Positions 19,858 to 62,500 of a stretch of DNA of 64,000 nucleotides are shown piece after piece (position 1 is the stretch's first letter; the number at the start of each line of letters is the position of its first letter). The stretch covers positions 48,090,501 through 48,154,500 of the forward strand of contig NC_091255.1 of assembly GCF_042477335.2 (NCBI RefSeq). Reading direction: 5' to 3'. Origin of the DNA: Ovis canadensis (lineage: Eukaryota > Chordata > Mammalia > Artiodactyla > Bovidae). A program made the position numbers and the translations under genes. The notes under the pieces were generated by a model. That model was not told the origin of the DNA, did no database searches, and was given only the letters and a program-made list of their open reading frames with translations.

Positions 19858-22800
19858 CTGAGCGGGAGAGACACAACGCTGAGGCCTGGCACTGCCTGCC
19901 TCCCTGGCCCCGAGTCCTGCTGATGCCTCCCATGGGGCCTATCCCAAGGGATGATGGGACCAGCATCAGATGCGGCTGGAGCCGGGGTGATGGGAGCAGA
20001 TCCCATGAGAATCCAGGGCACAGCAGCAAGAACCAAGCGGACAGCAGACACGGAGCAGCACTTCGGGGCTGACCTTTGAGATCAGCTGGTCTAATGCCCC
20101 TGACAAACTCCCCGTTTCCCAGAGGAGGTAACAGTGGGGAAAGGACTTGCCCGTGGTTGACAATAACGTTCAGACCTAAGCCTCTGGACTCCTACACCAA
20201 TGCTCTTCCCCCAGCTGTCTCTAACTAACATAACTGAGCCCATGCCTGTGTTGGCCACCAGCCCCGGTTCCCAGCAGTCTCACTGCTGCTTCTTCTCTCT
20301 TTTCTTAGTGAGAATCTCAGTTCCCCAACCAGGGATTGAACCTAGCCCATGGTAGTGAAACTCTGGAATCCTAACCACTGGGTCACCAGGGAAGTCCCCT
20401 GTCCCACTGCTTCTAATCTGCCCTCCCTCCTGCCCCCAGGCTCCAAGCCTCCTCCTCCTCCAGGGTGCTCGCCCACGTTCCTGCCACTTATCTGCCTCCT
20501 ACGCCAGCCTCTCCAGCCATGCAGGGCCCAGGTCCTCACCTGGTTCTCCTTGAGGCTCATGTAGCCTTGTTCCTTGTTCCCGGAGAAGGGTTGGCAGCAG
20601 CGCCAAACGTTCTCGCCTGGTCTCACCCGCTGCACAAAATTAGCTGGGAAGAAGCCAACCCGGTCGCCGATCTTGCCCTGGAATGAGGCTGGCAGTGAGC
20701 GCTGTGCTGCCCCAACCCCAACTGCTTTCTCTAGACCTAATATCCACTCAGAGCCAATGCCATCATCCTGTAGATCCTGGGTTATTTGTGTTTGAGCCCT
20801 TAGTTGGGGGACTTCTGGGTTGGGAAGGGCACAAGGTAGGTAGGCAGAGGGCCAAGACTGGGGCATGGAGGGGAGAAGTAAAGGCAAGACCTGAGGGTGA
20901 GCCTAGGCCTGGCTAGGTCGTGGAGGAAGGGGGGTGGGTGTTAGGGAAAGTGCCCTCCATGGGTCTGGGCTAGTCGGGTGCCTACCACCGCTCACCCTCT
21001 GCTCCCCACCCTGCCACATCACCTTCCACCAGTCCTCATTAGAGTCATCCACCAGCATGATCCGGTCTCCAGGCCTGGGACAAGAGAGTGTGGGGGGGGA
21101 GGGGGTAGCATGTGGGGCAGGAGGGACCTGCCCACCCTGCATCCCAACAGTCCTAGACCCCCAGGTCCCCTGCAAGGGCACTCGATGGCCTCTGTGTGAC
21201 CATAGGTACACAGGCACTATCTAGGACAGAGGCCTGGCATCAGTACCAAGCCTCTTGGACTCTGGCCCCTCTGTCTCATTTGGGGGCTCAGTAGCCTCCA
21301 GCATGCCAGGCAGAGGCTCCTGAAAGTCCCCCTCACACTCATGTTGCAAGGTCTGGGAGCGCAGGGCCCTGAGGTTGGAGGCAGGCAGCCCCCGGGATCG
21401 GGGTAGGGGTGGGAGAGAGGCGGGGCAGCTGGGGGACTCACTGCAGAGCCAGGTCATTCTTTTCCTGGGGCAGGAACTTATAGAGCGCCACGTAGGAGTA
21501 CATGGGCCCCACATCCTTCCGGAGGGCAGGCCTGGCGGGCTGCGAAGAAGCTCAGGGTCATGGCTGGGGGAAGGACACCTTTATTACTCCACCCACTCTC
21601 CCCTTCCCCTGATTTTGCCTACCCGGGGGCTAGGATATGGGACAGTGACAGAGAGAGGTCAGAGTCTCCTGTCTGCTGTGCCCATACACCCCTGAGGGAC
21701 TGGGCCAGGGATGGGAAGGGGGCACCTCCTTTGCCTGCTGCACTGGAACTGCCCACCCTTGGGAGTAGGAGTGGGCTCAACAGGCATGGGTCAGCGTTGG
21801 GAGGGGTAACACCCCTGCCTCCCATGCCTACTGACCCTAGCATTGCCCATCCCTGTAGACTGAGGATAAATGATGGCACAGTGAGACTCCTATTCAGCAT
21901 GCTCTCACCCACCTAGGGATCAGTGACAAGGAGAAGGATGTCCCCTTTCCACCTGGCCGGCCAAGGCTCAGTGCCACCCCAACCTCACCTGTTGTCCTGG
22001 GCTCTTCTCCTCTGGTCCTGACCCTTCGCTCTCGGCTGGGGCTGTGAATACTGCAGATGCCAGGGTGGGGCCAGAGTGTGAGGCTGCAGGTGGTGGCCCC
22101 CCTGTGCTCCGCTCCTGCCCCTGCTCCCCAACCCCACTCACCGCTGTCGCCAGGGCCCTCCTCTGAGCTGCGGATGCTGCCCTCCCCATCCTCGGTCAGC
22201 TCATCCCGCTCGCTCTGGGGATACAGAGAGGGGAGGGCTCAGCCCCCGACCCTCTGGGACCCCTGCCCCCTCCCTTTGGTGTTCCCCATACCAGGCTCCT
22301 TGTGGGGGACTCAGAGGTGCTGCTGAAGCTGGAGCGGTTCATCAGGGCCAGGGAGGTGCCATAGCGCAGGGTCTCGTACACAGGGTCTACCTTCCCGCTG
22401 GCCCCTGCCGAGGAGTCACCATCAAGGCCAGGCACCTGGCTGCCCTGCTGGCCGCCCTGCTGGCTGCCCTGCTCAGCCAGCCCTAAAATGAATTCTGCAT
22501 GCCCCTCACCTGCCCCTCCCAGGTCTCCCTAATTGCAGTGAGAACTCCATGTCCTCCCATGGTACCCAGGCACAAGCCTGAAGCCTCCTCGACCCCTCGC
22601 CCTCTGCACTGCCCATGTTCACTCCATCACCTCTTCTTGCCTCCCAAACAAGTCTAGCATCTGCTCACTTCTCTCCATCTCCATGACTGCCAGCCTGATC
22701 CAAGTTACCAAACTGGCAACCATCCTAGCTTCCCCATGGTCTCCCTGCTTCTCTCCAGCCCCTCCAATCCACATAGTAGCCAGAATGCTCTTGTAAAAAC

Positions 22801-42122: not shown

Positions 42123-42180
42123 CCAATAAGGGGTCGAAGCCTTGCCCCACCCTTCTGTGTGTCCCTGCCTGTGTATAAAG
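42123..42180 (+). promoter_or_regulatory. CCAAT and TATA boxes of the CP2-like gene
   Basis: CCAAT at 42123-42127 and TATAAAG at 42174-42180 stand 50 bases apart. Transcription would start near 42204-42208, about 65 bases ahead of the ATG at 42270. A focused TATA promoter without a CpG island suggests tissue-restricted expression. This is inferred from motifs and spacing. Confidence 0.6.
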
Positions 42181-42269: not shown

Positions 42270-42352
42270 ATGCTATTTTGGCACAACCAGCCGGAGCACC
42301 TGTGGCCGAGCCCTGGGGAGCTGTACCCTGGGCCACCAAGCAGCTTGCTCAG
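42270..42352 (+). CDS. CP2-like exon 1
   Basis: Encodes [10 protein letters not shown] through PSSLL plus two bases of an arginine. The start matches the TFCP2L1-type N-terminus. The donor is CAG|GTAAGG. Confidence 0.8.
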
Positions 42353-45310
42353 GTAAGGGCCAGAACCCCTCCCTCCAGTCCTCAGGAAGGCCCTGATCCG
42401 AGTTGTGATAGGCACGGTAGGGCCATCTGTTTCACGCTGGAGATTATGTCCCTCCAGCCCTCAGGAAGGCCCTGTCTGAGTTGTGATGGGCACGGTAGGG
42501 CCATCTGTTTCACGCTGGAGATGATGTCCCTCCAGCCCTCAGGAAGGCCCTGTCTGAGTTGTGATGGGCATGGTAGGGCCACCTGTTTCAAGCTGGAGAT
42601 TATGTCCCTCCAGCCCTCAGGAAGGCCCTGTCTGAGTTGTGATGGGCACGGTAGGGCCATCTGTTTCACGCTGGAGATGATGTCCCTCCAGCCCTCAGGA
42701 AGGCCCTGTCTGAGTTGTGATGGGCACGGTAGGGCCACCTGTTTCACGCTGGAGATGATGGGCTTCCTGCTCTTGGGGGGTGGTTGGTCAGTGCGTGCAC
42801 GCTCAGTCATATCCAACTCTTTGCGAACCCACTGGGAAATGGTCAAATGTACCTGGAATTTAGTGGGTCCCAGGACATCTCGAAACACCCTAACCACCCA
42901 CCCGCTCAGGACACATGTTGGGCGGTCACTGGCAGTCAGGCAGGCCTTGCGGTTGCAAATAAGTAATTGATGGCAGATGTTTGCAAATATTGTCGTGTTG
43001 GGGATTTGCACCTTAAGGGAGGTCTGCTGGAGGCCAGAGGAGCTGAATGGGGACCCCTTAGGCCCTGGCTGCTGCAGGGGTACCTGCTTCAGCAAATTGT
43101 AGGCTCCCTGGAAGGAGAATCTGGCAGGAAGAGTCAAAGCCTCTTGGAGGAGGGGGTGGACAGGGCAGAAGCCAGCTGTGCCTTCCTCTCCCTGGCAGGG
43201 AGGCCTTGCCCTTACCCTACCTGAAGCAGGAAGAGCTGGCCAACATCCTCCGAGTGGAGCAGCCCTGCCCCGCGTTACAGTACGTGCTCTGCGCGGCCAC
43301 CTCGCCGGTCGTGAAGCAGCAGGAGGAGACCCTCACCTACCTGAACCAGGGTGCGCTGGGCCTGGGCATGGAGAGGGGCTAGCGGGGTGCTAGTGGGAGG
43401 CTGGACCCGGGGTGGGCTGGGGGTGGCAGGCAGCCGCTCTGCCCCTGAGAGGGGTGCCCACTTCCCCTCAATTTCTCCTAGGCCAGTCCTATGAGGTACG
43501 GATGCTTTGCAACCCCAAACTGGTCGATGCCACCCAGGAGCCCCGGCTGCTGAAGGCAAGTGCCTCCACTCCCAGAACTGGCAAAGGCCGGCTGTGACTC
43601 TCCCTCTGGCAGGAAGCCAGTGTCATAACAGTGATGTCATTCTCAAGTAGAACCCTCTCGCGTCCACCTTTTCATTTGACCTTCACAACAGCTCAGTGGT
43701 GGCGGGAATTGTTGAGGAAACAGGCACAGTGAGGTGAAGTATTTTCTCAAGGACACAGAGCCAGTAAGTAGCAGAACCAGGATTTAGAAATATATTTACA
43801 TAGCATTATTCACACACACGATTCCATCTCTCAGGGAAAAAAAAAAAGTTTTTATTTAGCTCCCATTCTTTGCCAGAAACTGTTCTATGCACTAGAGATT
43901 CAGAGGTAAAGAGACAGATGTGGCTTCCTTCCTCAGGGGACTTGCGTTCTACTGAGACAAACAGGTCATTGAACAATTTAGATAAGATTACAAGTTGATT
44001 TACAAATCGCAAACTGCTAAGTGCTGCGAAGAAAGAGTGGCTGAGTGCAAAGGGATTAACACCTCCATTTTACAGATGAGGAAACGGAAGCTCTAGGTTA
44101 CTTCCTCAGTTTCACTGCTTGTGGAGTGGCAGGTGGCCTCTGGACGCAGATCTAGTTATTCTAAGTCCTTTTGCCCCCTGCAGGTGGGAGGGAAGGTAAG
44201 GGGGAGGCTGGCAAGGTTGGCCTGTCCCAGAGGTGGGAGCTGGCTCCCAAATGCCCCGGCGCCCTCCTGTGCCCACAGAGCGTGGTGCGGGTGGTTTTCC
44301 ACGACCGGCGCCTGTAGTACAGCGAGCAGCAGCAGCTGGACGGGTGGAGGTGGAGCCGGCCTGGGGACCGCATCCTGGACATAGGTGCCTGGGGAGGGTC
44401 CAGGGCCCTTCAGGGCTGCTGTCTGGCTTAGGGGCCCCTGTGGACGGGAGGTGGCTGAGCCCTGCTCCCTGCCTGCCAATCTGTGCCTGCAGATGTCCCA
44501 CTGTCCATGGGGGTGCTGGAACCTCAAGTGCTGCCCTCACAACTGAACACTGTGGAGTTTTATTGGGACCCAACCAAGAGGACCTCTCTCTTCCTGCAGG
44601 TGAGTCTGAGGCTGGGACAGGAAGGAGGCTGGAAGTCGGATGGGGGTGGCAGCAGCCTATATGGAAAAGAAAAGTGAGCTTGGGTGGAGGTCAGAGGAGG
44701 TAATAAGAATGAATCACTTCCAGAAAGCACCATGAGGAACAAAGGTGGACAAATGTTGATTGAATGTCACCATAGGGAAGGACTTGTTAAACATTAAGGT
44801 GATGGAAGAAATGACAAAACAGGACAGAATTTAGCTTCATAGAAAGTAATGGTCTTCAAAGTATAGGCAAAATTAAAAAGAGATATCAAATGGGAGAAAC
44901 AGTTGCCACATATAACGTATATAATGTTATATTTTAAATACATAAAAAGTTCTCCTATATTAAAAAGTAGATGAAAGCTCAATAGAAAAATGGGCAAAGG
45001 ATATAAGCAATTTATAAAGAAAGATACAAATTGATAATAAATGTAGACAGTTCAAACTCACACAATGTTAATAATGCTAATTAAAACTACATGTATATAT
45101 GCACACACACACACGGCTTCCTTGGTGGTTCAGTGGTAAAGAACCCACCTACCAATGCAGGAGAGATGCCTTCAATCCCTGGGTCAGGAAGATCCCCTGG
45201 AGAAGAAAATGGCAATCTACTCCAGTATTCTAGCCTGGGAAATCCCATGGACAAAGCAATGGCGGGCTACAGTCCATGTGTCACAGAGAGACATGACTTG
45301 GCGATTAAAC

Positions 45311-45357
<47 letters not shown>

Positions 45358-48300
45358 TATACACACTGGCAAAGACTCTTAAAACTATTCTTGGTAAGCT
45401 TTAGAGAAGCAGACAACCTCATGTCCCGAGAATGCAAATTGATGCATCTGTTTTGTAGGTATGTGGGCAAATTTTATTAAATTTAATGTTCATACTCATT
45501 TGCCCAGTAGTTCTACCTCAAGAAATGCAGTGTTGAATAAGTACACAAACATACCTTTAGCCGCTATTCATGCCCCTGCCATTTTTTATATTAAAAGATA
45601 TTAATCAAAATGTCCATCAGATAAGGGTGGACTTTGAAATAGGTGTTTAGTAGTTTATAATGGAAATTGTGTAGCCATTAAAATGATGTTTCGGAAATAT
45701 TTTATGACAAGAGAAACTGCTTTCACATACGTAAAGGCAGAATGCAGACTTGTGTTTAATGTTTGATTTCTGTTTTGCAAAAATAAAAGTGTGTATATAA
45801 AAGTTGTGTTTTTTTCTTGCACAGAGAAAATATAGAAACAATACTTGAATGTTAACAGTACTCTCTCTGAGAGGTGGGGTGATGGAGATGCCCGTATCCT
45901 TTGCACTTTTTCAGTGCTATATTGTACTTAGTTGCTCAGTCCTGACTCTGCGACCTGATGGACTGTGTAGCCTGCCAGGCAAGAATACTGGAGTGGGTTG
46001 CCATGTCCTCCTCCAGGGGATCTTCCCGACCCAGGGATTGAACTAGGGTCTCCTGCATTGCAGGCAGATTCTTTACCAGCTGAGCTACCAGGGAAGCCCC
46101 CCTGCATCTTCTATGTTGAATAGATTTCCTTTTATAATAAAAAGTATTGTCAAAATTCACATATAAGTCCCTTTTTTGAATGTCCTCTGTACTCTAAGCA
46201 CCTGGACGAGGAGCCAGGTGGATATGGCACAATTTCAGTTCCACTACTTCTTGGCATGGACCTTGCCCGGATAATGTAATCTCTACGAGCCTCAGCTTCC
46301 CTACCTGTAAAGTTAGATTCTTTAACTGTTCTTCACAAGATTGCGGGATGGCAATCACAACCACTGTAGTGGTTGTGCAGGTCAGGAAGGCTTCCTAGAG
46401 TAGACTGCTAGGTTTAGCAAATAAAATACAGGACACTCAATTTAGATAAATTTTGAACTGGTACCTACCCTGGAATGAAATGTATGGGCTCAAGTATGAG
46501 CAAAGAGAGCTTTCCCAGTAGAGGACTCTAGAGATAGCTATGCAGGTGTATTGGGGTGATAAGTAGGCTAGATGAGTGGGTCAGTGGGTTCATTGATGGG
46601 AGAAAGAGCAGCCAGGCAGAAAGGCTTGACTCTTTAAGGTGCTTGAATGCCACAGTCAGGGACTTTGCTTCTCCTCTCATAGTCTTAAGGAGCCACTGAA
46701 GGATTTTGGACCAGGTAAAGAACCTAATAAGTTATGCCTTAAGAATAGACACTGGTTGGGGATGGAACGTTGCTGTGGCTGACAGGTAACAGGTTTCAGG
46801 TGAGATCCCTTGAATGTGGGCAGGACCTGGATAGTCACCCTTCTTTCCCATCTCAGGTTCACTGCATCAGCACTGAGTTCACTCCTCGGAAAAAAGGTGG
46901 GGAGAAAGGCGTCCCCTTCCGCCTCCAGATCGACACTTTCAAGCCCAGTGACAAGGAGCTTCCGCTGGAGCACCTGCATTCAGCTGGCTGCCTCGTCAAG
47001 GTGTTTAAGGTACGGGCAGCACGGGGCCCTTTCCCCTCCCTCCCTCCCTCTCAGAGCTGTCACCCTGCCTTGCTGGCTGTGTGGATCTGACTTGGCTTTG
47101 CGGTGGACCCTCACTCAGCCTGCAGGCCCTGAACCTGGGACTGTTTTCTTCTCTGTACACAGACGGATGGGGCTTGGTCTCTTTCTCAGAGCCCTTCCTG
47201 TCAATGAGAAGTGGGCAGGTAAGGAGGGGAACTATGACGTTTCCTTGTCACCCTCCTGCAGCCCAAAGGAGCTGACCAGAAACTGAAAACTGACCGGGAG
47301 AAGATTGAGAAAGAGCCCGTGCATGAGAGAAACAAGTATCAGACAGCCTGTGAGAGCACCGTCTTCATGGAGGTATGTGTGCTGGTCAGTGGGGGCCGGG
47401 GGGAGAAAACATCCTCAGTGTACATGTGGGGAGACTGAGGCTTCAGGTATTGCGGCCGCTGCAGGACCATCAGCACCCCCACATACACACCAGTGAGTCC
47501 CCGTTTCCTGCGAGGACAGACTGTAGTGCCTGCAGTTGACGGTTCCCCGGAGCGACTGTAGTGCCTGCAGTTGACGGTTCCCCGGAGCGGACTCTCACAG
47601 GCTGCCTCTCCTGTGCCCTGCTGCTGCGACCACCCGCCTTTTGCTCCCTCGTCCTGGAGCATCTCCCTTGCTGCTGTAGCTCCTCCAGGAAGCCTTCCCC
47701 GACTCCCCCAGCCAGACCTGAGGCTAGTTTAACTCTCTTCATTGTGTGGAAATTTGATCTACCTGTGAGGGGCTCCTGGGGCGGGGACCAAGTTTGGCCC
47801 GAGGCCTGCCAACAGTCACCACCGCATGCCTGAATGTCCAGGCTAACCTTGCTGTTTGTTTGCCCCGCAGTGTTCACCGTGGCCAGAGCCCATTTCAGGG
47901 GCCCACCCGCCTCCGAGCCCTTTTGCTCTGACCTCTCCCCACTCCTGCAAGCTCCTGTCCCCGGAGAGGTGAGGCAGGATAAACACCTCCTATCAGCCCC
48001 TGGGGTGAGAGTGAAGAGAGAAGCCCTCAACTCAGGAGGCCAGCGAGGGGCAGGCCCAGGGGTGCCACTGAGAGAGCTTCTGGGGAACATGTGGGTGACA
48101 CCAGGACAGGCCTAGGGAACCGTGGGCAGGAGACTGGCCATCCTGCTCTCCCGAGCCAGACTCTCTGCTCCCCCATAGGCTCTGCTCCTCACCATCATTC
48201 GCCTTGGACACCTTGGGGGGCAGCCTAGCTCCTGTGAGTCTTCCCCCACCCCCGACTCTTCCAAAGCCTTCTCAGCAGCTCCCTCTTTTTCCATAATAGG

Positions 48301-51227
48301 GTGGCCCTGCCCCCTGGTGGACAGATGTGGCATGGCCACAGATCGCAAAATGGTTGCCTGATGGCATTGGGCATGTCCCTCCCGCAGGATGAGCCTCCCT
48401 TCTCAGACTTGGGACCCCCAAGGGCAGGGATGTTTCCCCTCCACCTTGTTGTCAGCCCCTGGGTCCATGGTGTTACTTGGACCACTCTTTATGCCTCAGG
48501 GTCTGAATCCCGGAGCCTCCATCCTAGAGACACAGCAGTGGTTGCATCGGCACCGGTTCTCCAGCTACTGCCAGTTGCTGGCCAGTTTCACTGGTGAGGC
48601 TGGGATCTGGTCCACAGGTAGTGACCAGACATGCAGGGGACTGAGGGCACTCAGGCAGGAAGCCTGTCTGTCCTAGCTTGCTCTGTGTCCTTCAACTTTT
48701 ATTTAGAACTAATTGTTGAAAAAGCACAATGCTTGCTAGACTCTCTTCTTGTGCATTAGCTCATACAATTTATACATTACCCTTGAGAACAGGGCTCAGA
48801 GAGGCTAAATAACTTGCCCAAGGGCACATAGCTAGTCGGTGACAGAGGTGGAATTTGAATCCAAATCTGACTGCCATGCCTGGATATACTAGGATTACAG
48901 TGGGTTGTATCCCTTGCCATCCTTGATGCCTGGCCTCTCTTCCCCTAATCTAGCCCTGTCTGACTTTGTAGGCACTGATCTGCTGAAGCTTACTCGCCAG
49001 GACCTTATTCAGATCTGTGGAGCTGCTGACGGGATCCGCCTTTTCAATACTCTCAAAGCCAGGTGCTGGGCATTGCCGACCAGGGTTCCCTTTTCATTAT
49101 AGTGTGCGCGTGCTAAGTCACTTCAGTCACCTCTGACTCTTTGCAACCCTATGACCTGTAGCCTGCCAGGCTCCTCTGTCCATAGGATTCTCCAGGCAAG
49201 AATATTGGACTTGGTTGCCACGCCCCTTCTCCAGGGCATCTTCCCCAACCCAGGGATCGAACTTGTCTCCTGCAACAGCAGGCAAGTTCTTTACCACTAG
49301 GGCTGCCTGGGAAGCCCTTCCAGTGTAGCTATACTTACCAACTCAGCTGCAGTCATTTCATAGAATGTTTAAATGGAAGGCACCTGAAAAACTACTTAAC
49401 CCCAAGTCTTTTTACAAAGTAAGAAACTCAGGAGGACAGTAAGAAAACTGAGGGCAACCTGCTGCCTGAGGTCAGAGCAAGGCTAGCAGAGTTGGGCTTG
49501 TTAGGTTGCTGTGACTTCTGTACCCATCCCGTGTACATCACTCAGTTTCTGGGGGTAAAGGTGGATTTTTCTCTCCTCTCTCCACAGGGTCCAGTGTTCA
49601 CTAAATCTTGGTGACCTCTCTCCCTAGACACCTGGGAGGAGGTGGGTTCTCCCAAAGGGGCTAAAACTGGGACCTGTTAGTTCAGGTATGAATGTAGACT
49701 TTTCTCTTGCCCAGGCCGATCCGACACCGGCTGACCTTGTATGTTGCTCAGGAGACCTCTAGGCAAGACGACGAGGCTCCTAAGAACCCTGACTCAGGTG
49801 AGGTTCTGGCCTCTTGAGAAAAAAGAAAGCCAGGTGTAGCTGCATGAAACCTCTTCTGGTCTGGGACCCAGCATGCCCTTGGCATTCTCATCTTCCATGA
49901 GTTGACTAGTCTTCTCCTTCCAGTATGTCTCCCTGGGTTTATTCCTCCATGCTCTACACTCTCACTCCACAAATTCCATCCAAATTTGTCATTCTATTAG
50001 CACAAGGGATTAGAACCCTATAATCTTGTTATTGTATTCGGGCTTAGTCATTCAGTCCCATCGAGTCTTTAAACTGGAGGTTCCTCTCAATTTGAGGCTT
50101 TGCCAGAGGTTAAGAAATGGGAAGTGAAAATGGAAGTGGATTTATCAGCTTTTTTCCTTTACTCCTTCTCCCCATCTGGGTGCCTCCCAATGAGCTGTTA
50201 CTTTGCCCTCTGGGCAGTGGCACCCTCCACTGACTCCTGCCCCTGTGCTGCCCACACCCCCAGGCTTTTATCAGGAGCTCTCTCTGGATGAACTCAGTGC
50301 TGTAGAGCTCCTGGGGAAACTGGCTGAACTCCTGGCCCTCCCAGCCAATCAGATCCATCGTCTTTTCCATCAGGGCCCCGGGGGCATCCTCATTCTCCTC
50401 AGTGACCAGGTAAAGTAGGCAGTGGTTCCCTGCACGGTCCCACAAAGCCTGGAATACTCTTCCAACCTCGGGCCCAGTCTCGCTGTCTCTGCCCTAGCTT
50501 ATCCTGTTTGGCTCTAAGAACAGAATTCTTAGTGACCCCTTCTCCCTTGCAGGTGGTTCAGAATCTTAAGGATGAATCATACTTTGTGGCTGTGGTGAAG
50601 AAAGGTAGGGGTTTCAGAGGGAGAGGTTGCATGCCTGGCAGGCCCTAGAAAGGTTAAGATTGTCTTATATTGTCTCTTAAATGAGATTGAAAGTTTCCTT
50701 GAAGGTGTGTCGTGGGTACTGTGCCCTGGCTAAGTGGTGAACATCTGCTCCACGCCAGCTTTGTGTCAAAAGGAGTCATATAGCTCAGAAAAGCTACTCA
50801 TTGCTCAGTAAAAAGTAACAATATTCTCATGAGGGGAAAATGCCCGAGTTTCAGGGAGTTATTAGGAGGGAAAGCCCATGCTTTCCCCACCTCACTGTCT
50901 CAACCCCATCAACAGTCATACGGGTCACAAGAGCAGGTGCTTGCTGGACATCACCTGGAGCAGAGCACTTCTGATCAGCAGGCTGGTGGTTCTGGTTATT
51001 CACTGTCTGCCCTCTCTCCCTCCTCTGTGCTCCTGTACCCAGGGAGGTCCTAAAGAGCTGGACTCAGGGGCCCTGGAAGAACACTTGATGTGGCAGGTGT
51101 ACCACAGGCTGCTTTGATGTTTGGGAGCAGCACAATAGGTTGGGGATCTCTCATCTCACTAGAGCCCCTTCTTCTTTAACTGCTTTCAGTGCAGAATCCA
51201 GATGGCTACTACCTGGTTCTGACCTAG
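42270..51227 (+). CDS. CP2-family transcription factor, TFCP2L1-like fourth paralogue, 15 exons, one in-frame stop
   Basis: CP2 factors (TFCP2, TFCP2L1, UBP1) are sequence-specific, oligomeric nuclear regulators with a Grainyhead-type DNA-binding domain. Exons: 42270-42352, 43199-43350, 43482-43555, 44279-44384, 44493-44599, 46857-47009, 47262-47372, 47871-47968, 48179-48233, 48500-48593, 48972-49062, 49715-49797, 50264-50409, 50553-50604, 51190-51227. They read as 480 codons plus TAG, against 479 residues I recall for human TFCP2L1. The N-terminus [10 protein letters not shown] resembles TFCP2L1 (MLFWHTQPEH). Then come the DNA-binding domain (about 65-260; [30 protein letters not shown]), a SAM-like domain (about 325-375; [25 protein letters not shown]) and an oligomerisation domain (about 404-480). 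Codon 116 is TAG (44315-44317) where paralogues have Gln. Exon 10's acceptor is uncertain. Divergence from all three known paralogues shows it is a separate gene. It is either a recent pseudogene or null allele, or translated by means not visible here. Confidence 0.8.
42369..42765 (+). repeat. 78-bp minisatellite, five copies, in CP2-like intron 1
   Basis: Units starting about 42369, 42449, 42527, 42605 and 42683 differ at only a few sites; the first unit is one base longer. The period is a multiple of three and stop-free in several frames, so long chance reading frames exist on both strands. Confidence 0.95.
42787..42833 (-). mobile_element. Bov-tA 3'-end fragment
   Basis: 'gcacgctcagtcatatccaactctttgcga' is the complement of the Bov-tA 3' end, directly after the minisatellite. 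Confidence 0.7.
43199..43350 (+). CDS. CP2-like exon 2
   Basis: Encodes [10 protein letters not shown] through TLTYLNQ, starting the CP2 DNA-binding domain. The acceptor is CTGGCAG and the donor G|GTGCGC. Confidence 0.85.
43482..43555 (+). CDS. CP2-like exon 3 (GC donor)
   Basis: Encodes [10 protein letters not shown] through PRLLK. The reading frame requires the donor AAG|GCAAGT, a GC-AG intron whose other bases match the consensus perfectly. Confidence 0.85.
43655..43790 (+). repeat. MIR SINE, old
   Basis: 'cttcacaacagctcagtggtggcgggaattg..aggcacagtgaggtgaagtattttctcaaggacacagagccagtaag' is MIR core and 3' part. Another old, unidentified repeat follows to about 44090. Confidence 0.7.
44279..44384 (+). 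CDS. CP2-like exon 4 (contains the in-frame TAG)
   Basis: Encodes [12 protein letters not shown], a stop codon at 44315-44317, then [22 protein letters not shown]. The family reads RRLQYTEHQQ here, so one C-to-T change of CAG explains the stop. The frame resumes with full similarity after it. Confidence 0.88.
44493..44599 (+). CDS. CP2-like exon 5
   Basis: Encodes [10 protein letters not shown] through TSLFLQ, within the DNA-binding domain. The donor is CAG|GTGAGT. Confidence 0.88.
45112..45310 (+). mobile_element. Bov-tA SINE
   Basis: 'ggcttccttggtggttcagtggtaaagaaccc' head, 'gatcccctggagaagaaaatggcaatctactcc' body and 'agagacatgacttggcgattaaacaac' end. Confidence 0.9.
45311..45362. repeat. 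Compound (TA)n(CA)n microsatellite
   Basis: A TA run followed by a CA run directly at the Bov-tA 3' end, a common place for microsatellites to grow from a SINE tail. Confidence 0.92.
45928..46105 (-). mobile_element. Bov-tA SINE
   Basis: 'ttagttgctcagtcctgactctgcgacc' to 'gctgagctaccagggaagcccccc', slightly shortened at its 3' end. Confidence 0.9.
46857..47009 (+). CDS. CP2-like exon 6
   Basis: Encodes [10 protein letters not shown] through CLVKVFK, the most conserved block of the CP2 DNA-binding domain ([15 protein letters not shown]). 51 codons in phase 0. Confidence 0.9.
47262..47372 (+). CDS. CP2-like exon 7
   Basis: Encodes [10 protein letters not shown] through STVFME, the C-terminal edge of the DNA-binding domain. 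Confidence 0.88.
47519..47588 (+). repeat. 35-bp perfect tandem duplication in CP2-like intron 7
   Basis: gactgtagtgcctgcagttg and the following 15 bases appear twice in direct succession with no visible difference, so the duplication is recent. Confidence 0.95.
47871..47968 (+). CDS. CP2-like exon 8
   Basis: Encodes [10 protein letters not shown] and a variable Pro/Ser-rich linker. CSPWP is a family hallmark. The acceptor is CCCGCAG and the donor AG|GTGAGG. Confidence 0.82.
48179..48233 (+). CDS. CP2-like exon 9
   Basis: Encodes [18 protein letters not shown], aligning with the 'SSFSLGEGNGSP' linker of the paralogues. Phase is compatible on both sides. Confidence 0.7.
48500..48593 (+). CDS. 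CP2-like exon 10 (acceptor uncertain)
   Basis: Encodes [20 protein letters not shown] through LLASFT, the start of the SAM-like domain. A phase-0 acceptor with a stronger pyrimidine tract also exists just before 48407 and would add 31 residues. I chose 48500 because it gives the family's linker length. Confidence 0.68.
48705..48875 (+). repeat. MIR SINE, old
   Basis: 'gggctcagagaggctaaataacttgcccaagggcacatagctagt' is the MIR 3' part, preceded by the core, in CP2-like intron 10. Confidence 0.82.
48972..49062 (+). CDS. CP2-like exon 11
   Basis: Encodes [20 protein letters not shown] through TLKA, the SAM-like domain core. Confidence 0.88.
49102..49320 (-). mobile_element. Bov-tA SINE
   Basis: Minus-strand copy from 'gtgctaagtcacttcagtcacctctgactc' to 'actagggctgcctgggaagccc', in CP2-like intron 11. 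Confidence 0.9.
49715..49797 (+). CDS. CP2-like exon 12
   Basis: Encodes [19 protein letters not shown] through NPDS, ending the SAM-like region and entering a charged linker. Confidence 0.85.
50264..50409 (+). CDS. CP2-like exon 13
   Basis: Encodes [20 protein letters not shown] through LILLSDQ, most of the C-terminal oligomerisation domain. Confidence 0.88.
50553..50604 (+). CDS. CP2-like exon 14
   Basis: Encodes [17 protein letters not shown] and one base, matching the family's 'MVQNFQDESCFVLSTIK'. Confidence 0.85.
51190..51227 (+). CDS. CP2-like exon 15 and stop
   Basis: Encodes [12 protein letters not shown] then TAG at 51225-51227, aligning with the family end '..NDGYHIILK'. Confidence 0.85.
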
Positions 51228-59488: not shown

Positions 59489-59596
59489 TCATAGGATGAT
59501 GCAGCATCTGCAGAAGCGCTGTCTGCTGCCCCCTACTGACGGGGGTGGAGTGACAGGTGCGAAGTAGGCGTGGACTTTAATATTGGGTAAATGGGT
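59489..59596 (-). CDS. FBXL20: FBXL20 last coding exon and stop
   Basis: Encodes THLPNIKVHA through RFCRCCIIL, then TGA at 59491-59489. It carries the C-terminal CAAX-like tetrapeptide. Confidence 0.96.
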   Translation of the reverse strand, partial: THLPNIKVHAYFAPVTPPPSVGGSRQRFCRCCIIL

Positions 59597-62500
59597 CTGC
59601 AACAAGACAGAAACGTTACTAAGAGGGAGGCCTTCAACAGAAACAGCAAGGTTGCTTTTCAGAAAAACCAGAGGGACTGAGTGGACATGAAGGCAGAACA
59701 GAGGCTGAGCACAGACAGCAGGTCAAGACCCAGGTTCTACTTCATACCATCGCAGGTTATTCTCAAAGACCATATCAGCTCATATACCTTTTGGTCGCTG
59801 CTTCTATAATAATAAAACTGGGGGGAAAAGTCATGCTAATCTCTTAACCTGTCCCAAAGGGATTCCTGGTCGGATTCCCATAGCTGGAAGAAATTATATA
59901 AACTTAAAAATTAACTTTTTCTAAGCCATCATTGACAATGTTTCCTCTGATATCTTTAAAAACCCATTATCCTCTTTTAACTAACATGCTTCTAACATTT
60001 ACTACATAAATGGTTTCTAAACTCCTACTATGTTCAAGGCATTGTGCTAGTTCTGTAAAGGGACAATGGTCAAGATAGAGATCCTGCTCTTAGGGAACTT
60101 AGGAGTTTAGACATGCACACAGATAGCTACAGCAGAAGAGTGCTAAGTGATTCTTGAGGATTCAGAGGTGGAATCCCTGGCTGGGGTGGAATCCAGCCAG
60201 GCAGGCCTAGGGGCCATAGGCCACAGAAGCAGCTCTGGATGACCTGTGGCTTTCCTCTTTCGGTAAAGAAGAGATATGGATGCGAGGCCTTCCCACTGCA
60301 GTTACATCCTCCATCCTCCAGGTCTAAAGGGAGAGGTGGAACTGAGGTCAACTGGAACTTCAACTTAAACCTGCTGCTCCTTTATGCACTCAGATACTAT
60401 TAAGGCCAACACAGATATTTTTAAAGGTTGGTTGTAAGGGCCAAATTAAGCAGAGTGCCTTTCCCACAACCGGTGTGGAGCAGATGTTCCAATAAATGTC
60501 TGTTGAGCAGAACAATCCAACACCAAGATTCATCCAGTCTTTTATAACCTCTTTGCTGGCAACCTGTCTTTCAGTGATTTGGCTATACATGAGTCTGTTA
60601 AGAAGGATGGGGCAAAAAGAAAAGGTAAAAAACGGTGATCCAACCACCATTTGCTGTCTTAAAAAGAAAAAGATCCCCAGCACAAGAGTTTGATATGAAA
60701 GGCTATACAATTAAAAAATTTAAACCCCATTTAAGTAAATATTTTTTCATGATTTCTTTTCATCCTGCTAAACTTCCATCAGGAACAATAGGAAAGAACT
60801 ATCTACCCTTAGGTTTGCCTGCCATATTTTTTTCTCTTTGTTGAAAATCCAAGTAAATACAAATATCACAGGAATCTAAACCTTAGAAGATGAAATGGAG
60901 GGGGGAAAAAAGGAAAGAGTGCTGAGAAACTAGAGCCAGAGGGTGATGCTGCCATCTTTACCCTGAGTCTCTTGATTCCAGCCCGCGTGATTTGCTGGCA
61001 GTCATAGAGTTCTATCCGCTCGAGGCTGTGACAGCTCTTCAAGTGCTCCAGGGACGCATCTGTGATTAGGGGACAGTTGTCCAGTTCAATCACCTCCAGC
61101 TGGTCATGGGCACAGGCCCCGTTCCCCAGGTGACGAATTCCATCGTCTGTGATCAGCTCACAGTGAGACAGACTCTGCAGGCAAATAGAGCAGGGAAGGA
61201 CACTGAAATACTTAATGGCATTCTTTGAATCAGAGGCCTGGGTGTAATCAGGAAAAAGAGCTTTCTGGTTTGATTCTGAAATGTATCAAGCCATCACTAG
61301 AGCCATGTGGTGAAATGAAGAATGCCTATCAGAGTCGGTGGGGTTCTGCTTTTGATAATCAATGATCAACATTTCTCCGGGTGATTCTAAATACATCTTG
61401 TGAATTCCTATAATGACTGTGGAATAGTTCATAAACAAAATAAGACATCTCCCACAGCCCTCTTGACATACAAATTATTAATTAATACTTTTCCTCTCTT
61501 ACTGGGACAAGGCGGGGCTCAAGCTTTTCCTGTAAAAATTTTTTTGAAATTTGGACTCAATATTGAATACCTGATGCAGGCCATGCCCGAATAGTTTATT
61601 ACCTGAAGATGATTCTTACAGCTGTAAGATGTGGTCACCTGTTAACTTTACAAGTTTTCCTTAAATCCCTGGTTCCTCCACGTGAAACCCAGAACCCCTG
61701 ACTGAAACATGGTTTAATGTGCCACAGAACACCAAGAATGAGCCTAGACACAGAACAGACAACCTGAATTCCTTCTCACAGTGTTACTGGAAGCAGGAGC
61801 AGAGACACCCTCAACGTAAAGCTTTGACTGGTCTGTTTTGCAGGAACATTTAGTCCCAGGGAGAAGCAGACTGTATTTGGGGCCATCTCATCTCTTGGAT
61901 CTCTGGAAACTTAAGCATCATTCAGGCTGGAGTGTAATTCACGCAGGAGGGAGAAAATCTCTTGTCAGTTTTCAGTCTCTAAGCATTGACAGAGGAAACA
62001 TTTAACTTTTCCCGTTTCTATCTTTCTCCCTTTAGACAAGTCCTCCCGTGGTCTTCTGTAGGTTGACAATTTGGAGAAATATACTTTCCCAAGATGGTAA
62101 CCAGACACCAATAGAGCTCAGTTTTGAGTAAATCCAATAAATACATAAAATTTCCAAAGTCAAACTCACCAATACTTGAAGTCGAGGACAGTGTATAGAA
62201 AGTTGGATTAATGTGCTATCTGTTATCTGGAAGAAACATATAAGTTTATTTTAGGTGTAACTGCAAAAAACTCATGGGCCATACCACATTTGACTACACT
62301 TCCAGACTGATATCCTGATAATCATCAAACAACAGAATCTTAAAGTTGAAATCCCATCAGCTACCAGAACCTGTTTTTTGAGAATCTATCCAGGCTAGAC
62401 TTCAATTCACCTAGTCATCTTTGAACAGGTCTGTTGAAAATTATTTTTGAAATAAACGAAAACTTGTCCCCTCGTAACTTTTATCCACTGGACTTTGTCT

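Follow-up and report, generated by a model that had tools for sequence, protein, structure and literature searches.

A likely decaying fourth CP2-family transcription factor gene with a premature stop in a genome of Ovis canadensis

In two reviews, the CP2 subfamily of transcription factors is treated as three mammalian genes (PMC7471608, PMC6213935); the latter lists TFCP2, TFCP2L1 and UBP1 and describes Xenopus ubp1 as switching ion-transport cell type in the larval skin. A third source gives the human family as three GRHL genes together with TFCP2, TFCP2L1 and UBP1 and places the CP2 three on 2q14, 12q13 and 3p22 (PMC6585022), and a fourth names the SAM domain as the feature telling LSF/CP2 proteins from Grainyhead (PMC2873413). 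In full-text searches of openly accessible papers, most of which yielded few results or none, we came across no account of a fourth CP2 gene in vertebrates. The current study concerns such a gene, located at positions 42270-51227 of a 64,000-nucleotide (nt) stretch of the Ovis canadensis genome (NC_091255.1, positions 48,090,501 to 48,154,500; hereafter the window). CP2-4 is used here as a working name for this fourth CP2/LSF-type gene clade. We consider it likely that CP2-4 is an ancient CP2 gene in decay across ruminants and that it has been inactivated in this genome.

The exons and the stop are directly observed in the assembly. As proposed in a previous interpretation of the DNA made without database searches (the sequence-only reading), fifteen exons join with consistent phases into 1443 nt of spliced sequence, equal to 480 codons plus a stop, running from a start ATG at 42270 to a terminal TAG at 51225-51227. 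Thirteen introns are of the GT-AG type and intron 3 is GC-AG (GAAG/gcaagt). The same reading took the 480-codon frame to be open, having overlooked that codon 116 is itself a TAG. The exons and the premature stop are as follows.

42270..42352, plus strand: exon 1, with the start codon
43199..43350, plus strand: exon 2, in which the CP2 DNA-binding domain begins
43482..43555, plus strand: exon 3, followed by the GC-AG intron
44279..44384, plus strand: exon 4, DNA-binding domain, contains the premature stop
44315..44317, plus strand: premature in-frame TAG at codon 116, Q in relatives, 67 nt upstream of the exon 4/5 junction
44493..44599, plus strand: exon 5
46857..47009, plus strand: exon 6, contains L220, aligned to TFCP2 Q234
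47262..47372, plus strand: exon 7
47871..47968, plus strand: exon 8, linker
48179..48233, plus strand: exon 9, linker
48500..48593, plus strand: exon 10, in which the SAM domain begins
48972..49062, plus strand: exon 11, SAM domain
49715..49797, plus strand: exon 12, in which the C-terminal GRHL1_C domain begins
50264..50409, plus strand: exon 13
50553..50604, plus strand: exon 14
51190..51227, plus strand: exon 15, with the terminal stop inside

The TAG at codon 116 (44315-44317) lies in exon 4, inside the CP2 DNA-binding domain, and a six-frame protein search of the whole genome independently reported "1 TAG" in the same exon match (C11:48134776-48134886). At this site, Q is found in 168 of 175 homologue rows, P in one with a misannotated exon and a gap in six, in an alignment that takes in a TFCP2-like protein (P0140), a UBP1-like protein (P0175) and some misannotated exons; the equivalent residue of TFCP2 in the PDB is likewise Q. 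A C-to-T change in this genome would have turned the codon into TAG. The stop cuts the DNA-binding domain and takes away the SAM and C-terminal domains. By the established rule, a stop in such a position provokes nonsense-mediated decay, which is expected here since it precedes the exon 4/5 junction by 67 nt and further junctions lie downstream. The outcome would be either decay of the transcript or a fragment of 115 residues in which the DNA-binding domain is truncated and non-functional and the SAM and C-terminal domains are missing, and the CP2-4 product of this genome is probably no longer working. The locus is best described here as a null allele or as a unitary pseudogene of recent date. 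As in a unitary pseudogene, the lesion affects a single-copy gene in its ancestral place, the TAG being in the sole C11-type locus found in the genome. The main text of a paper on unitary pseudogenes contains none of the terms "TFCP2", "CP2", "STAC2", "FBXL20" and "Tcfcp2" (PMC2864566). A search of viral contigs for the sequence context of the stop gave 0 stretches.

Membership in the CP2 family, which the sequence-only reading had claimed from its hallmarks, is confirmed by domain searches in which the product was translated with an X at codon 116. The Pfam CP2 DNA-binding domain (PF04516; 163 bits against a cut-off of 25), SAM_3 (PF18016; 64 bits against 22.6) and the C-terminal dimerisation domain GRHL1_C (PF25416; 50.7 bits against 27) all exceed their curated cut-offs, far beyond chance, and the DNA-binding domain matches the solved TFCP2 chain 8y7v_A with an E value of 1.1e-100. 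CP2-4 in this genome is thus a CP2/LSF member by descent and not an intact coding gene. By analogy with its relatives, a working CP2-4 would use its Ig-like DNA-binding domain to contact a paired CP2 site, and its SAM and C-terminal domains would mediate oligomerisation, with TFCP2, TFCP2L1 and UBP1 among the possible partners.

A genome search with the CP2-4 protein recovered its own exons on C11, TFCP2L1 on C2, TFCP2-type exons on C3, UBP1 on C19 and an intronless UBP1 copy on C14; the C2 and C19 assignments were checked, and the C3 exons are named TFCP2 by inference. The C14 copy (C14:72394436-72398008) is a processed UBP1 copy with open frames of 306 and 332 residues in two reading frames, and a LOW QUALITY "upstream-binding protein 1-like" entry of Ovis aries (P0232) looks the same as this copy. 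A tree was built from 40 chosen rows of 294 proteins, with only two TFCP2L1 rows, one of them entered by hand rather than from a database record, and no invertebrate root. In it the window protein joins Capra and Budorcas (goat and takin) at 100/100, and a branch supported at 100/99 brings together placentals, marsupials, platypus, reptiles, a bird, amphibians, lungfish, Leucoraja and Heptranchias, apart from TFCP2, UBP1, TFCP2L1 and a UBP1-like shark protein. By these sequence relationships CP2-4 is a fourth CP2 clade of jawed vertebrates, with members in mammals, reptiles, birds, amphibians, lungfish and cartilaginous fish, and the earlier proposal of a fourth paralogue distinct from the three known genes is upheld. 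A grouping of CP2-4 with UBP1 is absent from the best tree and, with the fish members included and the tree unrooted by invertebrates, is not rejected by the approximately unbiased (AU) test (p 0.115). Placing the tetrapod CP2-4 rows alone with UBP1, which splits off the fish rows, was rejected (p 7e-74).

One might suspect a young duplicate of ruminant TFCP2L1, or a retrocopy of it, as "transcription factor CP2-like protein 1" is the database name of most listed rows and, as the sequence-only reading had noted, both proteins begin with MLFWH. Such an origin has practically no probability: a separate TFCP2L1, 54% identical, lies on C2, the clade extends to amphibians and fish, and forcing the window protein together with TFCP2L1 costs 270 log units. 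The family-tree check that had been proposed places the window protein outside ruminant TFCP2L1, the AU test rejecting a recent copy at a p-AU of 6e-38, and the 14 introns reject a processed copy. The sequence-only reading had argued from intact splice phases and a promoter against both a processed and a decayed copy. The first part of this argument stands, whereas the second does not, given the in-frame TAG and the ruminant changes at invariant residues described below.

The likely decay of CP2-4 beyond this one genome is indicated by residue changes on individual branches. These were counted at the 155 of 480 columns in which conservation among 166 non-ruminant rows reaches 97% or more. Poorly aligned stretches were masked and shared changes (A47V, V144M) were dropped by rule; the invariant columns were defined with the control rows included, which slightly favours low control counts. 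The counts, as changes at invariant columns over all changes, are given by branch.

Control branches: Physeter 0/4, Balaenoptera 0/2, Camelus 0/2, Prionailurus 0/1, Odobenus 1/15
Further control branches: Tupaia 1/21, Diceros 2/18, Crocodylus 0/11, Monodelphis 1/9; Lemur 0/0, which adds nothing
Ruminant branches: P0057 (a sheep-hybrid model, see below) 1/3, Capra 1/7, Budorcas 3/10, Oryx 2/9
Further ruminant branches: Bos mutus 11/23, Bos taurus 10/29, Rangifer 8/26

On the control branches, 5 of 83 changes fall at invariant columns, against an unconstrained expectation of 155/480. The Ovis branch of the window has four of eight with the stop and three of seven without it (p 0.014 against controls). 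Excluding the stop, the Caprini together have 8 of 27, a share distinguishable from that of the controls (p 0.003) but not from the one expected without constraint (p 0.84); no correction for multiple testing was applied to these p values, which come from overlapping branches. The models of Bos taurus, Bos mutus and Oryx bear a LOW QUALITY flag from their source, and exons are missing or distorted in those of reindeer and deer; errors in the models may be included in the Bos and reindeer counts. Taken together, the branch changes fit a loss in progress across ruminants, where CP2-4 would be under relaxed constraint.

Several observations weigh against this interpretation. The stop is the sole lesion seen in the window, with the start, the splice sites and the remaining frame all intact, and the near full-length goat and takin gene models have Q116. 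The change counts per branch are small; goat alone (1/7) is no different from the controls, and goat and takin together reach only p 0.043. The lesions of other ruminants are known from gene models rather than DNA, and in a single assembly a fixed stop, an allele and an error look alike, such that fixation of the stop would be a further step. The intact remainder of the gene and the goat and takin models would also suit a CP2-4 that is functional in the species, in which case the TAG would be an error of the assembly or an uncommon allele carried by this animal. We regard this as unlikely. The Ovis branch carries its three changes of seven at invariant residues besides the stop, and the closest model, P0057 (Ovis ammon polii x Ovis aries, a computed and independent model), shows all seven changes specific to the window protein wherever it covers that protein, lacks exons 3 and 4, and has further R196C and R237W changes at residues common to 98% and 96% of outgroup rows.

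The exon pattern of P0057 also bears on a different possibility, namely that joint skipping of exons 3 and 4 bypasses the stop to yield an oligomerising, non-binding CP2 protein. Removal of the two exons takes out 180 nt and keeps the frame, the first stop of the joined product being the terminal one; 60 residues of the DNA-binding domain are lost, while the SAM and C-terminal domains are kept. P0057 has exactly such an in-frame join avoiding the stop, and the natural TFCP2 isoform LSF-ID is without part of the DNA-binding domain. However, P0057 was derived computationally and is missing exons 8 and 9 as well, and nothing else points to selection for such a form, so we hold this to be very improbable. 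That P0057 leaves out exons 3 and 4 might also be due to the GC donor of exon 3. At that donor (43556), the GC sits within a strong consensus (AAG/GCAAGT); TFCP2L1 of the same genome continues AAG/GT there (by translation), and the GC is probably a change specific to this gene. Inactivation in this genome, within a gene decaying across ruminants, accordingly remains the reading that we favour.

When examining the distribution of CP2-4, it is evident that the gene is widespread. A homologue survey, of which 120 of 2385 matches were listed, includes whales, camels, pigs, carnivores, perissodactyls, bats, moles, pangolin, lemurs, squirrel monkey, tree shrew, colugo, afrotherians, marsupials, platypus, reptiles and birds. 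Identity to the window protein is 94.8% in goat, 95.8% in takin, 88.3% in cat, 75.8% in opossum, 66.2% in tortoise and 56.3% in Xenopus. Among the 120 matches listed of 2385, there are no rodent, lagomorph, ape or Old World monkey names, whereas marsupials at 76% are present, which suggests that CP2-4 has been lost in these groups. The sequence-only reading had envisaged an old paralogue kept in some mammals and lost in others. Its retention in many mammals agrees with the listed matches, as does the absence of rodent and ape names among them, whereas the restriction to mammals was too narrow, the clade being much older. In two entries the complete frame fits on a contig much shorter than the 9-kb gene of this genome, as would be the case for a spliced mRNA: P0081 (481 residues, 1926-base contig) and P0154 (477 residues, 1718-base contig, 43 member sequences). 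We infer that their source tag denotes read assemblies. Amphibian and lizard members of the fourth clade (P0134, P0136, P0138, P0169, P0170) carry UBP1 or UBP1-like names, and a turtle member (P0153) is named as a claudin-like protein. Because several amphibian members bear UBP1 names, the frog larval-skin factor ubp1 may be CP2-4.

One residue distinguishes the amniote members of the clade. Window residue 220 (L, exon 6) aligns to Q234 of TFCP2, a numbering checked on three TFCP2 proteins (MAWALK from residue 1, C at 233). This position is Q in all tree rows of TFCP2 (8/8), UBP1 (5/5) and TFCP2L1 (2/2), and also in the GRHL1 and GRHL2 chains. In a 176-row alignment it is L in 153 rows, every one of them from an amniote wherever the source is named, Q in 21 and a gap in two; the Q rows are 19 from amphibians, lungfish or cartilaginous fish plus the UBP1-like P0175 and the TFCP2-like P0140. 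The nearby K236 is kept in 174 of 174 rows. The Q-to-L change may alter DNA binding. The double substitution Q234L and K236E is a laboratory dominant-negative mutant of LSF; the papers searched for it make no mention of it. Together with the fixation of L at a site that is Q in all paralogue rows, this mutant forms the basis of a speculative and rather improbable proposal: amniote CP2-4 would be a natural damper of CP2 activity, one that joins mixed oligomers, weakens or redirects their DNA binding and is dispensable, repeatedly lost and now being lost in sheep, frog ubp1 perhaps being the same gene before the change.

The neighbourhood of CP2-4 provides a hint of its origin. The remaining features of the window that were located are the following.

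59489..61285, minus strand: FBXL20 3' coding end, with open frames at 60869-61285 and 59492-59722 and a stop at 59489-59491
21023..21494, minus strand: STAC2-like SH3 exons, a looser motif match
42123..42179, plus strand: candidate core promoter, CCAAT at 42123-42127 and TATAAA at 42174-42179, 91 bases upstream of the ATG, consensus match only
42370..42760, no strand assigned: minisatellite in intron 1, 78-base unit, five copies, 95% matches

The name FBXL20 is presumed from similarity to the FBXL2-like gene beside UBP1, and the identity of the STAC2-like exons is likewise putative, from a motif only. C1/SH3 patterns searched in the window and Pfam searches of 10 other open reading frames of the window returned nothing for STAC2. 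The placement between STAC2 and FBXL20 given in the sequence-only reading is nevertheless sound in that FBXL20 adjoins the gene and the STAC2-like SH3 exons, identified by motif, are on the minus strand. The promoter of that reading is present as a TATAAA and a CCAAT upstream of the ATG and, being a consensus match, is retained as a candidate. Intron 7 contains a perfect 35-base tandem duplication in two copies (47519-47589).

CP2-4 and FBXL20 are arranged tail-to-tail, with stops at 51227 and 59491, 8.3 kb apart. On C19, UBP1 (minus strand) is likewise tail-to-tail with an FBXL2-like gene (plus strand), their stops being about 3.7 kb apart. In the one FBXL comparison made, FBXL20 of the window against the FBXL2-like gene of C19, an exon pair has 73% identity over 74 residues (E 6.5e-36). 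Two CP2 genes paired alike with related FBXL genes indicate an old block duplication. As for the mechanism, CP2-4 would most likely be a UBP1 duplicate that arose together with FBXL20 when a UBP1-FBXL2 block was copied, which would most simply be placed in the early vertebrate genome duplications.

These results have implications for studies of the known CP2 genes. With the fourth clade mostly filed as TFCP2L1 or UBP1, cross-species work may mix two genes, and the fields touched include stem-cell pluripotency, the ion-transport cells of kidney and skin, and blood pressure. The ruminant decay and the apparent absence from the listed rodents and apes constitute a natural test of redundancy within the CP2 family, while the amniote-wide Q-to-L change is a directly testable change in DNA binding.

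Compared with the known members of the family, CP2-4 resembles TFCP2L1 (LBP-9/CRTR-1), whose gene in this genome likewise has a layout of 15 exons (14 of them located, one unreadable); the two proteins share the MLFWH N-terminus and the CP2, SAM and C-terminal domains, and TFCP2L1 is 54.2% identical to the window protein. TFCP2L1 nonetheless occupies another locus and belongs to another clade, and amniote CP2-4 has L at the TFCP2 Q234 position and, in this genome, a stop. UBP1 (LBP-1a/b) resembles CP2-4 in its tail-to-tail arrangement with an FBXL2/FBXL20-type gene and is about 51% identical, but it begins with MAWVLK, forms a separate clade and is located on C19. TFCP2 (LSF/CP2c) has the same domains and about 51% identity, yet also forms a separate clade and keeps Q234 in 8 of 8 tree rows, in contrast to the L of amniote CP2-4. 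Further counterparts are the entries called "transcription factor CP2-like protein 1" or "upstream-binding protein 1-like", which are orthologues of CP2-4 named after its paralogues and which, unlike the gene of this genome, are mostly without any stop.

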